This document shows positions 5,041 through 11,846 of a stretch of DNA of 11,846 nt, piece by piece. A program made the translations under genes and the position numbers. Source of the DNA: an uncultured Ardenticatenia bacterium (GTDB lineage: Bacteria > Chloroflexota > Anaerolineae > Promineifilales > Promineifilaceae). The stretch covers positions 1 through 11,846 of the forward strand of contig CALLZA010000855.1 of the NCBI GenBank assembly GCA_937858165.1. The letters are read 5' to 3'. The notes beneath the pieces were generated by a model, which was given only the letters and a program-made list of their open reading frames with translations, was not told the origin of the DNA and ran no database searches. How positions within the stretch are numbered: the stretch's first letter is position 1; each line of letters opens with the position of its first letter.

Positions 5041-5101
5041 AATTAGGAATTACGAATTAGGAATTAGGAATTACCAATTCGTAATTCCTAATTCCTAATT
5101 C
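5041..5101. repeat. AT-rich palindrome of AATTAGG heptamers
   Basis: The whole gap between the CBS gene stop (5106) and the korA start (5037) is made of AATTAGG / CCTAATT heptamers. The best hairpin pairs 5054-5073 with 5082-5101 (20 bp perfect, 8-nt loop). An alternative pairs 5041-5058 with 5076-5093 (18 bp perfect, 17-nt loop), so the two folds are mutually exclusive. Its low GC contrasts sharply with the flanking genes. It occupies the region where a korA ribosome site should be. Confidence 0.9.
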
Positions 5102-5105
5102 CTAA

Positions 5106-6525: not shown

Positions 6526-6560
6526 GGCGGACACGCGCGTCTGAGGATGCGCACTCCGCC
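6526..6560 (-). terminator. Stem-loop directly behind the transporter gene, candidate terminator
   Basis: Outer arms GGCGGA (6526-6531) and TCCGCC (6555-6560) enclose an inner stem GCGCGTC / GATGCGC (6535-6541 / 6546-6552, one mismatch) with loop TGAG. On the minus strand it begins at the TAG stop of the transporter gene (6562-6560) and is followed by GGAGGTTCTTTG, only mildly U-rich. Position favours termination or 3'-end protection of the lanthipeptide transcript; the weak U-tract argues for caution. Confidence 0.5.
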
Positions 6561-8767
6561 TACTGCGCCCCAACCAGCGCCGCATACTGCCCACCCCGCG
6601 CCAGCAGCTCGTCGTGCGTCCCCTGCTCAACAATGCGCCCCGCGTCCAGCACGACGATTAGATCGGCGTTGCGAACGGTGCTCAGCCGGTGGGCGATGAC
6701 AATGCGGGTGCTGGGCAACGCGCTCAGATTGGCGTCCAGTTGCTGCTCCGTCAGCGAGTCCAGGTGGCTGGTCGCCTCGTCCAGCAGCAGAACACCCGGC
6801 TCGGCCACCAGGGCGCGGGCCAGCGCCAGTCGTTGCCGCTGGCCGCCGGAGATGGTGCTGGCGTCCTCGGCCAGATAGGTTTCGTAGCCCATCGGCAGCG
6901 CCTCGATCTCCTCCGCAATGGCCGCCAGCCGGGCCGCGGCGCGGATGCGCGCCAGGCTGGCGTCCGGGGCGTGGAGAGCGATGTTCTGGCGCACGGAGCC
7001 GCTGAACAGAAACGGCTCCTGCATGACGACGCCGAACTGGCGGCGAAGCTCGCCTAGATCAAGCTCTTCCGCGTTCCGGCCGTCGTAGGTGATGACCCCG
7101 GCTGTTGGCTGATAGAGGCGCAGCAGCAGGTGGCCAAGCGTCGTCTTGCCCGAGCCGCTGCGGCCGACGATGGCGACTTTCTGCCCGGCGCGGATGGACA
7201 GCGAGACGTCGCGCAGGACGAAGGGCGCTTCGGCATTATAGCGGAAGCTGACGCCGGATAACTCGATATCGCCGCGCAGCCGTTCGACCTCGCCCTCGCC
7301 GCCCGCCTCCGGCTCGGCGTCCATCACGTCGGCGATGCGGTCGAGGTGCGCGCCGGCCAGTTGCAGCCGCTGGATGCTCTGCACCAGCGACGACAGGGGG
7401 CTGAGGAACAGCAGCGCGACGCTGTTGACGGCCAGCATCTGGCCCAGCGTCATGGTTCCGTTCATCACCTGGTAGACGCCCAGCCACAGCAGCGTGATGG
7501 GGGCCAGCGCCCGCAACAGCCAGCGGCCGGTGTCGATGACCGCGCCCTCCGTGTTCTTGCGGATGGTGACGTTGAGGGCGCGATAGAAGAGCGTCTCCCA
7601 CGCCCCGTAGGCGCGGGCCTCCGAGCCGGTGGCCTTCACGGTGGCCACGCCCTTGAGCATCTCCACCAAATACCCCTGCTCGTCCCCCTCGGCGGCCAAC
7701 ATCTCGGCCACCAGCCGGCGCTGCCGGGCGGCCGTGGCCAGCGTCAGCGCCACCTGCGCCCCACCGAAGGCCAGGGCGACGGCGGCCATGAGCGGCTGTT
7801 GCCATAGCAGGAAGGCCAGATAGGTGAGCACCAGCGCGCTATCGAGCACCAGCGAAAACGCCTCGCCGGTCAGCGTCTCGCGCAGAACGGTGTTGCTGCC
7901 CAGGCGCATTAGCAGGTCGCCGCTCGAACGGGCCTGGAAGAAGCCAAAGGGCAGGCGCAACAGCCGCTCCAGAAAGCCGGTCATCAGCCGCACGTCCAGC
8001 CGGGCCTGCAAGTTGACCAGCAGCACGCCCCGCGCCAAGCTGACCAGGGCGTGGGCCAGCGTCAGCACCGCCACACCCGCGCCGACAAGCGCCAGCGTGC
8101 CCCTGTTGCCGGCGGGCAGAATCTCGTCCACGAGCACTTGAGTGAAGATGGGGCCGGCCAGCGCCAGAAGCTGGATGAGCAGCGACACCCCCAAAATCTG
8201 GGCCAACAGGCCGGGGTGCTCGCCCAGGATGCCGCGCAGATAGGTGATCCAGGCGTTGGATCGGGTCGACCGGGCCGCTCGAAAGTCGATGCCCGGCGCG
8301 AAGGTCATCACTACCCCGGTGAACGCCGCTTCGAACGCCGCCGCCGACAGCCGCCGGCGACCGGAGGCGGGATCAACGATGTCCACGCCCTGCGGCGACC
8401 AGCGCTCCAGGACGACGAAGTGGTTGAACTCCCAGAAGACGATGGCCGGCAGCGGCAAGAGGGGCAGGTTCTCCGGCTCGGTGGAGAAGGCGCGCACGAT
8501 CAACCCCTGGCGGCGCGCCTCGCGGGCGATGGCCTCGGCCGTCACCCCGTCGCGCCCGGCGTGCAGCAGGCCGCGCAACTGATCCACGCGCGTGGCGCGG
8601 CCGTGGTAGGAGAGCACCATTGCCAGTGCCGCCGCGCCGCACTCCATTTCGCTCATCTGGAGCCGCACGGGAACGCGGCGGCCGAAGACGCGTCTGAAGC
8701 GCCCTGCCCCCTGCGGTCCGCGACGCGACGGCGCTTGAGATGGCTGGGATGATGGTGACGCGGCCAC
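6560..8767 (-). CDS. Peptidase-containing ABC transporter (C39 peptidase, LanT/PCAT type)
   Basis: Membrane exporter that cleaves the leader (usually after a double-glycine) from a ribosomal peptide and exports the product. At 735 aa it is full length. The C39 peptidase is at about 32-160 with the complete active site: Q37 in QMSEMECGAAA, C43, H116 in EFNHFVVL and D132 in DIVDPASG. The six-helix exporter domain is at about 172-470. The nucleotide-binding domain is at about 500-735 with Walker A GRSGSGKT (535-542), Q-loop VMQEPF, signature ISGGQRQR (639-646), Walker B VLLLDEA (659-665) and H-loop IAHR with H693. The GTG at 8767 follows a GGAGGG site 8 nt away and lies 4 nt after the preceding gene. 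It is last in a lanM-like operon, so the cargo is most likely that operon's modified peptide. No precursor gene is in the window. I see no missing catalytic residue. Confidence 0.94.
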   Translation of the reverse strand: MAASPSSQPSQAPSRRGPQGAGRFRRVFGRRVPVRLQMSEMECGAAALAMVLSYHGRATRVDQLRGLLHAGRDGVTAEAIAREARRQGLIVRAFSTEPENLPLLPLPAIVFWEFNHFVVLERWSPQGVDIVDPASGRRRLSAAAFEAAFTGVVMTFAPGIDFRAARSTRSNAWITYLRGILGEHPGLLAQILGVSLLIQLLALAGPIFTQVLVDEILPAGNRGTLALVGAGVAVLTLAHALVSLARGVLLVNLQARLDVRLMTGFLERLLRLPFGFFQARSSGDLLMRLGSNTVLRETLTGEAFSLVLDSALVLTYLAFLLWQQPLMAAVALAFGGAQVALTLATAARQRRLVAEMLAAEGDEQGYLVEMLKGVATVKATGSEARAYGAWETLFYRALNVTIRKNTEGAVIDTGRWLLRALAPITLLWLGVYQVMNGTMTLGQMLAVNSVALLFLSPLSSLVQSIQRLQLAGAHLDRIADVMDAEPEAGGEGEVERLRGDIELSGVSFRYNAEAPFVLRDVSLSIRAGQKVAIVGRSGSGKTTLGHLLLRLYQPTAGVITYDGRNAEELDLGELRRQFGVVMQEPFLFSGSVRQNIALHAPDASLARIRAAARLAAIAEEIEALPMGYETYLAEDASTISGGQRQRLALARALVAEPGVLLLDEATSHLDSLTEQQLDANLSALPSTRIVIAHRLSTVRNADLIVVLDAGRIVEQGTHDELLARGGQYAALVGAQ

Positions 8768-8771
8768 GTGG

Positions 8772-9335
8772 CTACCCCTCCCCCAATAGCTGATCGACGC
8801 CGGGCAGCAGCGCCAGGCCGGTCTGCGCGCCGATGGCCACGCGCACGTCGGCCGGAGAGCCGCGCCACAGGTCGCCGCCGGGCAGCGCCGCGGCCAGCGT
8901 CAGGTGAACAACGACGACTGGGGCCGTGGGCGACGCGACCAGCCACGCAAAGCGGTCGCGGGCGGCGGCAGGCGAGAGAAGCTCCGGTTCGACCGCCACC
9001 ACGCGGCCGGTCACGTCGGGCGAACCGCCGTCCAGACCGGGCAGCGTCACGCGTGCTGCCTGCCCCGCGGCCAGACGCGGCGCAGCCTCGGGCGGCAACA
9101 GGGCGATGATGGCCACCTGATCATCGCCGGCGGCCACGCCGGTGACGAAGCCGGAGCCGGTGGCGTAGACCGGCACGTCGGCGGCCCATAGCAGCCCGGC
9201 GACGACGGCCAGCAACAGGCCGCACGCCACCCAGAGCCGCGCCCAGCCGAGTGTGGCGTAGCGCGGCAGCTCGACCTTCTCCAGCCGTTCGTTGTAACGG
9301 CGCAGGGCCGAGGCGCGGAAGATGGGGCGGGCCAT
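8772..9335 (-). CDS. Short HlyD-like single-span membrane protein, export accessory
   Basis: 187 aa. The N-terminus FRASALRRYNERLEKVELPR resembles the cytoplasmic start of HlyD-family adaptors in lanthipeptide/NHLP clusters. One membrane helix at about 33-53 is followed by VPVYATGSGFVTG, a typical first beta-strand of the adaptor barrel. The extracytoplasmic part (about 55-187) then looks like beta-barrel/lipoyl half-motifs (GQAARVTLPGLDG, DVTGRVVAVEP, ADVRVAIGAQTG) without the long coiled-coil hairpin of full adaptors, which are usually about 400 aa. The ATG at 9335 shares its A with the TGA of the upstream synthetase gene and has GGAGG 8 nt away, pointing to translational coupling. The frame is open further upstream, but that stretch overlaps the synthetase. 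Assignment to the HlyD superfamily is by pattern only. Confidence 0.7.
   Translation of the reverse strand: MARPIFRASALRRYNERLEKVELPRYATLGWARLWVACGLLLAVVAGLLWAADVPVYATGSGFVTGVAAGDDQVAIIALLPPEAAPRLAAGQAARVTLPGLDGGSPDVTGRVVAVEPELLSPAAARDRFAWLVASPTAPVVVVHLTLAAALPGGDLWRGSPADVRVAIGAQTGLALLPGVDQLLGEG
8776..8781 (-). promoter_or_regulatory. Ribosome binding site for the C39 ABC transporter
   Basis: GGAGGG on the minus strand, 8 nt before the GTG at 8767. It supports that non-ATG start and partly overlaps the end of the preceding gene. Confidence 0.6.
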
Positions 9336-11658
9336 CAGGCGAACCTCCGCGCGCCGTCCGGGGCCAGAATGGAGGGCACGGCGGCCGGCGCGGCCAGCCG
9401 CAATAAGCCGTAGCCAATGCCCGCCAGCCCGACCATCAGCCCCGGGGCCGCCGCACCCAGCGGGCAACCCGTTTGTGGGCTGTGTTGCTGAAGCGTGTCG
9501 AGGACGGCCGCGGCGTGGCGGCCGGCCAACTCGAGCAGGGCCGGATCGTCCAGCGCCATGGCCGCCGACCAGGCCACGTCCAGTTGCCCCAGCGCGCCGC
9601 GCCCGAGCGAGTGGTTGTCCGACCCCTCATCCAGCAACGCCGGCAGCGCCGCCGCCAGATGCGCGTCAACCTGGGCGCGACGCCCGTCGGGCAGCCAGGG
9701 GCGCGCGGCCAGATAGGCCGGCCACAGGCCCACGCCCGCGTCGGCCTCGTGCAGTAGGGCTTCGGCCGTGGCGCGGGTGGCGCTGTCGCCGGTCAGCTCG
9801 GCCAGTTCCAGCAGCGGAGCGATCGCACCGGCCGCGCCGTCGCTGCTGGCCGGGAAGCGCGCGTGCCGGTCGTAGGGATCGAGCGCTTCGACCGTCGCCA
9901 GTGGCAGCAAGCGCACCAGGGCGCGGCCGGCTGCCTCGGCCACGGCCAGCGCCCGCGGCGCGGCCCCGGTGGCCTGGGCCGCCAACAGCCCCACCAGTAG
10001 CCCGGCCAGACCACGCGCCACGCCCGGCGCCTCGTCCTCGGCTGCTTCGTCCAGGGCGAGCGCCGCTTGCTCCACCAGTGCGTCCACTTCGCGGCGTAAC
10101 GCATCCGCTCCGCCCCAGAGGGGAATGAGCTGGGCCAGGACGTAGAGTTGGCCGCCCAGCCCGTCGAAAAGCCCCAGGGGAGCCAGCGCGTCCGGCCCAT
10201 CGGCGCGCGCTTCGGCCGACAGCCGCAGCCACGCGGCCACGGCGGCGCGCGCCAGTGTTGTCCAGCGCGCTTCGCCGGACAGCGCCCCCAGATGGGCCAG
10301 AAAGAGGGCCACGCCCGGCAGCCCGTTATAGAGGTCGGTGTCCAGCGGCTCCAGCGTCCAGTGGCCGTCGCCGTCCAGTTGAACGCCGACCCACGACGCC
10401 TCATCCCCGGCGCGCACGGCCGAAGCATCGAGCCTGGCGGCGATGGCCGTCGCCGCGGCCAGCAGGGGCGTGGCCAGATCGCGCGGCGCGACGGCCGGCA
10501 GGGGGCGCGGCTTGGGCACACCGGGCGCGTCGTCGGCTACGGTGGCGAAGGCGGCACGTATTAGCTCGCGCTGCCGCTCCAGATCGTCCTCGCCCAGCGC
10601 CCGAATGCGCCGCCGCGCCGTCGCCAGGCCCGACACCGGGAAGAAGCCGGCTACTTCGCCGCCGCCATAGGCGCGAACGGCGCGCGAGTTAGCCCGCGTC
10701 GTGAACAGGGGCACGTCGCCCGCCAGCAGATCGGCCGTCTCGAACGGCACCAGCGCGGCCAGGGCGGAATCATCCTCCTCTTCGTGGAGCCGGCGCGCGA
10801 AGTAGGCCGCGCGCGCCTCCGGCAGGCGCAGCAGATCGGGGTGGTAGCTGTTGTCCAGCAGCTTGCCGTAGCGCTGGCCGGAGCGGGGCAACACGCGCAC
10901 CTCGGCAGCAGCAAAGCGCGACAGCGGGCCGTCGGCGGCCAGGAGCGCCGGGCGGTGGGCGACCAGCAGCCGGTAGGCAGCGACGAAGCCGGCATCCAGC
11001 GCGGCGAGGTAGTCCAGGGCATCGACCGGGCGGCCGTCGAGGCTTGGCCGGTTATGGCCGCCGCCCAGCGTTTCCGGCCGGCGCACCAGGCGCATCTGGT
11101 CTGTGCCGCGCCCCTGCCAGCTTGGAACGGTGTAGGGCGTCACTTGCCCGGCTGCACCCGTCAGCCCGCCCATGTCGAAGCGGTTCTGGCCGACAGACTC
11201 CGGCTCCGGCAACAGGCCGACGCGCAGGACGGAGTGATAGGTCAGCGCGTCCAGCGCCAGGTCGAGCGGCGGCCAGGTCGGGTCGGCGTCGCGGGGGTGG
11301 AACAGCGCCTCCAGATCGATCAGGACGGGCTGCTCCCCGGCAGCGATGACGTTGCTCAGGTGGAAGTCGGTCGCTTCCAGCGCGTAGAGCAGCGCCAGAG
11401 CGGCCCCCTGCCGCCGGTAGAAGCGTTCGACCTCGGCCACCGAGGAGCAGGGCGCGGCCTCGGCCCAGGCCATCCAGCCGTAAGCGCCGCGATCGAGGAG
11501 AGGCAGCGTCGCCGGCGCAGGTTCCAGGCCGCGCGCGTTCAGCCAGCCCACAAGGTTCTGGAAGTGAGCCTCAACGGCCAGCGAGCGGGGCTTGTAGACC
11601 AGTCGCGCGCCGGAAGCAAAGGACAGCACGACCACCGCCCGGCCGCCGCGCTTGGTTG
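9335..11658 (-). CDS. lanM: LanM-type (type 2) lanthipeptide synthetase, 5' truncated, degenerate cyclase domain
   Basis: Cytoplasmic enzyme family that phosphorylates and dehydrates Ser/Thr of a precursor peptide, then cyclises it with Cys. The gene enters from the right edge: GGRAVVVLSFASG just before codon GTG 11635 is already mid-domain, so roughly the first 200-300 residues are missing and 11635 is not a start. Numbering from 11635: the dehydratase domain keeps VYKPR (K15), the kinase motif TDFHLSN (D90, H92, N95), LIDLEALFH (D107) and FTTRANSR (311-318). The usual VR....RxT..Y motif reads VRVLPRSGQRY, with Gly (G253) where Thr is expected. The LanC-like domain (about 434-766) keeps the barrel motifs LYNGLPGVALFLA, LFDGLGG and GLMVGLAGIGYGLLRLA. 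It has lost the catalytic His (SSDGAAG for AHGASG), lacks a WCHG motif and has LGRGALG for LCHGxLG. It is first of three coupled genes. Confidence 0.88.
9344..9348 (-). promoter_or_regulatory. Ribosome binding site for the HlyD-like gene
   Basis: GGAGG on the minus strand, 8 nt before the ATG at 9335 and inside the end of the synthetase gene. It is the reason for choosing this start over upstream in-frame codons. Confidence 0.6.
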
Positions 11659-11736
11659 CTGTCTCTTATACACATCTCCGAGCCCACGAGACCGTACTAG
11701 ATCTCGTATGCCGTCTTCTGCTTGAAAAAAAAAAAA
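11659..11736 (+). other. Untrimmed Illumina Nextera adapter with index and poly-A
   Basis: 11659-11677 is the 19-bp Tn5 mosaic end used in Nextera kits (CTGTCTCTTATACACATCT). 11678-11692 is the rest of the read-2 transposase adapter (CCGAGCCCACGAGAC). 11693-11700 is CGTACTAG, which matches the i7 index known as N702. 11701-11724 is the P7 end (starts ATCTCGTATGCCG, ends CTTCTGCTTG). 11725-11736 is 12 A, as expected when a read runs past its fragment. This is synthetic and not part of the organism. Confidence 0.98.
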
Positions 11737-11846
11737 TAATACTATCGTCTAAAATGCTCTCACAATCACACCTGCAAACGCATCTAAACATGCTATCACA
11801 GAACATAACTATCTTAACAACAACATATAGATGGAGCACTATCTAA
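11737..11846. other. Random A/C/T-rich sequence after the adapter
   Basis: The stretch after the adapter's poly-A is low in G and AT-rich, in sharp contrast to the GC-rich contig. It has no recognisable coding signal or repeat. I read it as base-calling noise beyond the end of a library fragment. No real feature is supported here. Confidence 0.88.

Follow-up and report, generated by a model that had tools for sequence, protein, structure and literature searches.

LanM-derived enzymes without cyclisation and phosphate-elimination residues as candidate kinases of Cys-free Ser-Arg repeat peptides

The analysed window is a stretch of 11,846 nt of contig CALLZA010000855.1 from an uncultured Ardenticatenia bacterium (GCA_937858165.1). 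It contains a gene for a LanM-type enzyme in which the residues expected for cyclisation are missing (Table 1), raising the question of what reaction such an enzyme can perform, and on which peptide. Its frame and framework are intact. The DUF4135 domain and the LanC-like barrel are found in a single protein by profile matches (324 bits for DUF4135, 82 bits for LANC_like) and by structure prediction, and the protein scores 551 bits against the LanM profile TIGR03897 vs 42 bits against the class III profile NF038151. The statement of the initial annotation that the barrel framework is kept and no frameshift is involved is borne out by these LANC_like and TIGR03897 matches. The window covers residues 161-933 of P0001, a 933-residue protein cluster that is the window LanM itself; independent evidence comes from homologs P0002-P0028. 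LanM shares an operon with the C39-ABC transporter and the short membrane protein. The stop of the LanM gene is overlapped by the ATG (9333-9335) of the short membrane protein, and in a genome of the same genus (G034) LanM is likewise followed by an open reading frame similar to this protein.

Table 1. Features of the window and residues of the LanM-type enzyme named by their CylM counterparts
Feature	Position	Strand	Basis or remark
LanT-like C39 peptidase-ABC transporter; leader cleavage and export presumed	6560..8767	-	Pfam/NCBIfam
Short membrane protein, HlyD-like by inspection only	8772..9335	-	no Pfam/NCBIfam match
LanM-type enzyme (DUF4135 kinase-like half and LanC barrel)	9335..11658	-	5' end cut by adapter
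NHSLGRG instead of NHSLCHG (zinc ligands Cys and His lost)	9596..9616	-	alignment
ASSDG instead of GFAHG (catalytic His lost)	9836..9850	-	alignment
Elimination residue lost: Gly at the place of CylM T512	10877..10879	-	alignment
Equivalent of R506 kept	10895-10897	-	alignment
Equivalents of CylM H349, N352, D364 kept	11360-11362, 11351-11353, 11315-11317	-	alignment
Kinase residue kept: Asp (CylM D347)	11366..11368	-	alignment
Kinase residue kept: Lys (CylM K274)	11591..11593	-	alignment
Elimination residue lost: Lys at the place of CylM H254	11651..11653	-	alignment

In the cyclase half, the Gly (9602-9604) and Arg (9599-9601) codons of the NHSL-GRG segment replace the Cys and His of CHG, an Asp codon (9839-9841) occupies the place of the catalytic His in GFAHG, and the segment that carries WCHG in canonical LanMs corresponds to gaps or unrelated residues. 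Codons and alignment agree here with the initial annotation. The readable 766 residues contain only two Cys, as had been counted, at residues 63 and 724. The protein retains none of the three zinc ligands (Cys, Cys, His) and no catalytic His. Among the best 120 of 348 homologs of the cyclase half, the 28 nearest (P0001-P0028) form a clade with the same tendency: both Cys ligands are absent in 28/28, the His ligand in 18/28, and the catalytic His in 20/28. The loss is partial: 10 of these 28 relatives still have the His ligand, and 8 retain the catalytic His. The other 92 of the best 120 keep Cys/Cys/His in 89 cases (the exceptions are P0080, P0089, and P0093) and the catalytic His in 87. Zinc loss as a mark of the clade alone was considered and rejected, the same three proteins and LanMs of Ktedonobacteria having lost ligands too; in the latter, the precursors contain Cys wherever one was found.

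In a tree of 82 LanMs, the 26 clade members included are set apart from all others by a branch with SH-aLRT 100; the tree was obtained by a quick method with a midpoint root and with 29 rows of unusual letter composition. The short proteins P0007, P0011, and P0025 were excluded from the tree, and the comparison set consisted of 36 of the 92 other homologs and 21 loci. Searches of 56 (order), 400 (phylum), and 396 (class) genomes, and of further sets of 25, 46, 7, and 151 genomes, which overlap, yielded no additional clade members among the matches that were made into loci, the classification covering that part of the matches. In a contig scan, the only clade member among the best 80 of 246 loci was L012, the G034 gene.

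The residues of the kinase-like half can be interpreted by comparison with CylM, for which the accessible text of PMC4550811 assigns K274, D347, H349, N352, and D364 to phosphorylation and D252, H254, R506, and T512 to elimination of the phosphate. We mapped the elimination sites by alignment with CylM and LicM2 to T160, K162, R414, and G420 of P0001; the Ala at the D252 place in the window itself is an adapter base, and P0001 carries Thr there. All five kinase residues are kept in 26/26 clade proteins that cover them. The elimination set has been dismantled, with three of its four residues lost and R506 alone kept. The D252 place is taken by Thr (15), Asn (6), Ser (3), or His (1) and the H254 place by Lys (21), Arg (3), or Gln (1) in the 25 covering clade proteins, and Gly stands at the T512 place in 28/28. 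The other 92 of the best 120 homologs have D and H in 84/84 and Thr or Ser at 512 in 89/89 covering proteins. Confidence in the predicted structure is low at the P-loop (159-161), which counts against a kinase role.

Departures from D/H/Thr-Ser are rare in the loci as well, being observed in 11 of the 157 LanM matches that cover the elimination sites (165 LanM matches in loci in all). Six of the 11 are duplicates representing the G000 and G034 genes; three (L037, L141, and L142) differ at these sites solely by a Glu in place of D252; and the remaining two, L065:4417-7503 and L059:3211-5454, are LanMs with a dead kinase, the latter bearing the only Gly at 512 outside the clade among these 157. 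In Ktedonobacteria we also observed neighbouring LanM genes with complementary losses (L065:4417-10913, L059:3211-10637, and L108:1492-5885). One LanM of such a pair keeps kinase and elimination residues and has lost the zinc ligands, and its partner keeps the cyclase motifs, with the kinase motif lost in L065 and L059, as if dehydration and cyclisation were divided between two LanMs.

The candidate substrate lies on another contig. The window contig is closed (11659-11846) by an adapter starting at 11659, which we take to be a Nextera-type mosaic end, followed by AT-rich junk. A search of the same genome located the LanM start on contig C1012, which opens with a mirror image of the window-end adapter (L122:1-217). 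These adapter ends indicate that one LanM gene was split across two contigs. Upstream of the LanM start on C1012 and on the same strand is a precursor with a mersacidin-type leader, ending in ...ELTDGELAEVAGG and followed by the core KKKRKKRKKSRSRSRSRSRSRS, which contains Ser and no Cys. The Cys-poor precursor that the initial annotation had advised looking for thus exists in the genome and is Cys-free; neither its Ser-Arg character nor the loss of phosphate-elimination residues had been foreseen there. G034 has the same gene order, a Cys-free core RKRRRRRRRKNTSRSRSRSRSRS, and a LanM with T512G and without Cys ligands. In both genomes a small membrane-anchored protein with no Pfam or NCBIfam match is divergent from the precursor (L122:1327-1848 and L004:2-451); in L122 it is followed by an apparent response regulator and an apparent histidine kinase.

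Precursors of this kind are numerous. Two protein searches, one giving 80 proteins and one the best 120 of 2091, together provided 186 distinct precursors with a contig size, and 52 of these, among the matches listed, satisfy our own cut-offs for the Ser-Arg type (no Cys, at least five Lys/Arg, and at least four Ser/Thr). Their cores are basic, contain no Asp or Glu, and end in Ser or Thr in 52/52 cases. They hold 315 Ser and 16 Thr, of which 234/331 follow and 212/331 precede an Arg; (SR)3 or (RS)3 occurs in 37/52 cores, and a Lys/Arg run of five likewise in 37/52. The Ser-Arg tails are written in mixed codons, and hence the repeat is maintained at the peptide level. All five Ser-Arg precursors scanned match the leader profile TIGR03898 (64-77 bits vs a cut-off of 23.5), and a Pfam scan of these five gave no match. 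In the protein database, 17 of the precursors listed carry the assignment PF27893.1; each is of the Ser-Arg type, and thus curators may already have grouped such peptides; this family gave no match in the Pfam copy used and is not named in the open literature searched.

Pairing of enzyme and precursor was seen directly in two genomes, that of the window and G034. For eight further clade LanMs (P0004, P0010, P0012, P0014, P0018, P0022, P0024, and P0027) the contig is exactly as long as that of one Ser-Arg precursor, and among the matches listed this holds for no further combination of LanM and precursor on contigs above 3000 bases. Such agreement in length is a strong, if indirect, hint at physical linkage.

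Is the loss of elimination simply a consequence of Cys-free cores? The comparison covered 85 non-redundant LanM loci in which the same stretch also encodes a precursor. At least one core contains Cys in 78 of them, and in the remaining seven every core is Cys-free: G034, a Ser-rich group (L006, L125, L126, L128, and L146), and L046. In this table the 'Zn_lost' rows L069, L078, and L132 reflect cut contigs rather than losses, and the window's locus is uncounted, its precursor and LanM being on different contigs. Cys-free cores as a general cause can be rejected, as D/H and T are retained in L046 and throughout the Ser-rich group (five loci). Since only G034 of the seven deviates, elimination loss tracks the Ser-Arg type and not Cys-free cores generally, although the direct count behind this apparent tie, G034 and the window genome, is small. 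The Ser-rich group forms a separate LanM branch (SH-aLRT 100) with long Cys-free cores; its cyclase is intact in L125, has GFAYG in L126, and has lost the zinc ligands in L128 and L146. L046 contains two Cys-free cores (L046:7192-7449 and 11005-11241), and its Terriglobales LanM keeps zinc and elimination residues.

We consider it somewhat probable that the clade represents LanMs turned into peptide serine kinases, which would make (pSer-Arg)n peptides for export by the adjacent C39-ABC transporter. The proposed pathway is as follows. The precursor, composed of a mersacidin-type leader, a Lys/Arg block, and a (Ser-Arg)n tail, would be bound by LanM, and its serines would be phosphorylated by the intact lipid-kinase-like half. 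With the elimination residues lost, the phosphate would stay in place, leaving phosphoserine as the putative end product, and thioether rings would not arise, the enzyme having no zinc site and the core no Cys. The C39-ABC transporter would then cleave after Gly-Gly and export a linear (pSer-Arg)n peptide. The first of the three outcomes offered by the initial annotation, that thioether rings are not made, is supported by the Cys-free core of the genome's own precursor: within Cys-free Ser-Arg cores ring formation cannot take place. The second, a separate cyclase, found no counterpart, because searches of the genome (79% complete) with PF05147 and PF13575 matched only the pieces of this gene. 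The third, a barrel converted into a peptide-binding scaffold, stood in part: the barrel is predicted to fold, but within the clade the kinase half is the better conserved of the two, with a cyclase-to-kinase conservation ratio of 0.80 in the clade vs 1.06 in canonical LanMs. It is plausibly a retained structural or peptide-handling scaffold.

If all Ser and Thr are assumed to be phosphorylated, the 52 listed cores have a mean side-chain charge of -0.1 (sd 3.9, range -10 to +6), with a correlation of only 0.22 between the numbers of basic and Ser/Thr residues. Such a mean would be in keeping with near-neutral polyampholytes, such as a cationic peptide that phosphate keeps masked within the producing cell.

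The main competitor of the kinase reading is a LanM that only dehydrates, the replaced residues still allowing elimination and the product being a linear cationic (Dha-Arg)n peptide, a ring-free multiple electrophile. We regard this as possible but rather doubtful. The DUF4135 half is well kept, and R506, retained in 28/28 clade proteins, speaks against a pure kinase; as CylM D252A, H254A, and R506A were impaired and yet partly dehydrated the peptide (accessible text of PMC4550811), other residues might serve elimination. Furthermore, the zinc-less DUF4135 enzyme CcaM dehydrates, according to the available part of PMC10676384, and Cys-free dehydrated peptides may exist nearby, as the Ser-rich group keeps D/H/R/T. 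Against this, D252, H254, and T512 are replaced clade-wide, and T512A by itself abolished elimination in CylM even with longer time (same part of PMC4550811). On chemical grounds, the Ser or Thr that ends 52/52 listed cores is an improbable site for a stable Dha. On balance, phosphorylation of the Ser-Arg cores is favoured over dehydration by these comparisons of sequence, with the reservation that elimination loss together with a Ser-Arg core was seen directly in two genomes only.

The loss of two catalytic sites in one protein might suggest a dead or decaying gene that has persisted by chance, or a protein that binds without catalysis. This reading is very improbable given 26 further proteins of 46-74% identity with invariant kinase residues, the retention of precursor and transporter, and Ser-Arg tails that are maintained as peptide in mixed codons. 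Slightly less credible still is a metal-independent cyclase that forms class III-like rings, perhaps on another, Cys-containing peptide. Class III synthetases without zinc residues do cyclise (available parts of PMC10301443 and PMC7268733), but the cores of the window genome, of G034, and of the eight equal-sized-contig partners have no Cys, the cyclase half is under weaker constraint, and the domain scores as class II (551 vs 42 bits), on which ground a class III-like cyclase was rejected. Finally, a sequencing or assembly artefact, suggested by imperfect read trimming at the adapter-bearing contig end, is hardly conceivable, since the same zinc and catalytic losses in P0002-P0028 and G034 rule out a base error in the window.

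Several described systems resemble the putative kinases in part. From class II LanMs (CylM, 5dzt; LicM2, 6st5) the clade differs in that it has no zinc site, its substrate has no Cys, and three of four elimination residues are replaced. Because catalytic features that define lanthipeptide synthetases are absent, we do not file the clade as one; LanM is its parent by fold and sequence. The LanMbC enzyme of dehydrazoles, CcaM, likewise joins a DUF4135 half to a C-terminal domain that has no zinc site, but that domain is of the class III cyclase type and acts alongside a YcaO protein (available part of PMC10676384), whereas the window domain scores as class II and no YcaO partner was matched in the 79% complete genome. 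CA_C0082-like LanM homologs of Clostridium also have no zinc motif; elimination and kinase residues and a precursor are absent from them, as far as the accessible part of PMC10301443 goes, in contrast to the kinase residues and dedicated precursor of the clade. Cys-free precursors beside lantibiotic genes are described for M. tusciae and B. cereus SJ1; the first case is LanB-type and Gly-rich, the second has a frameshifted LanM, and Ser-Arg repeats are not described for either in the available text of PMC3951391. Titles and abstract openings of the open literature, a scope outside which most subscription papers and bioRxiv fall, contained neither a natural elimination-minus LanM with a precursor nor a Ser-Arg-repeat lanthipeptide precursor.

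Secreted linear, multiply phosphorylated Ser-Arg repeats made by LanM-derived kinases without elimination and cyclisation may be a new type of ribosomal peptide, a proposal for which we see about even chances. Eukaryotic SR-protein kinases act on consecutive Arg-Ser repeats. As part of the same reading, and with equally balanced confidence, the clade peptides might in effect be a bacterial counterpart of RS-repeat phosphorylation; this is analogy only, as the eukaryotic kinases belong to an unrelated family and the clade substrate is a short secreted peptide. According to the accessible parts of PMC4550811 and PMC7268733, LanM is a lipid-kinase fold to which phosphate elimination was added, and the clade appears to have reverted to a kinase, elimination and cyclisation being lost along with the substrate Cys. 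As natural elimination-minus LanMs, its members would be useful for separating phosphorylation from elimination. The Ser-Arg peptides form a group so far unexplored, and the 'type 2 lantibiotic' label can be misleading when applied to an entire group of precursors.

Two minor observations concern the rest of the window. Positions 1-190 are G-rich and of low complexity, enter a 2-oxoacid oxidoreductase gene, and look like a contig-end artefact. Positions 5041-5105, between two genes, contain an AT-rich repeated and inverted motif (aattaggaatt...).
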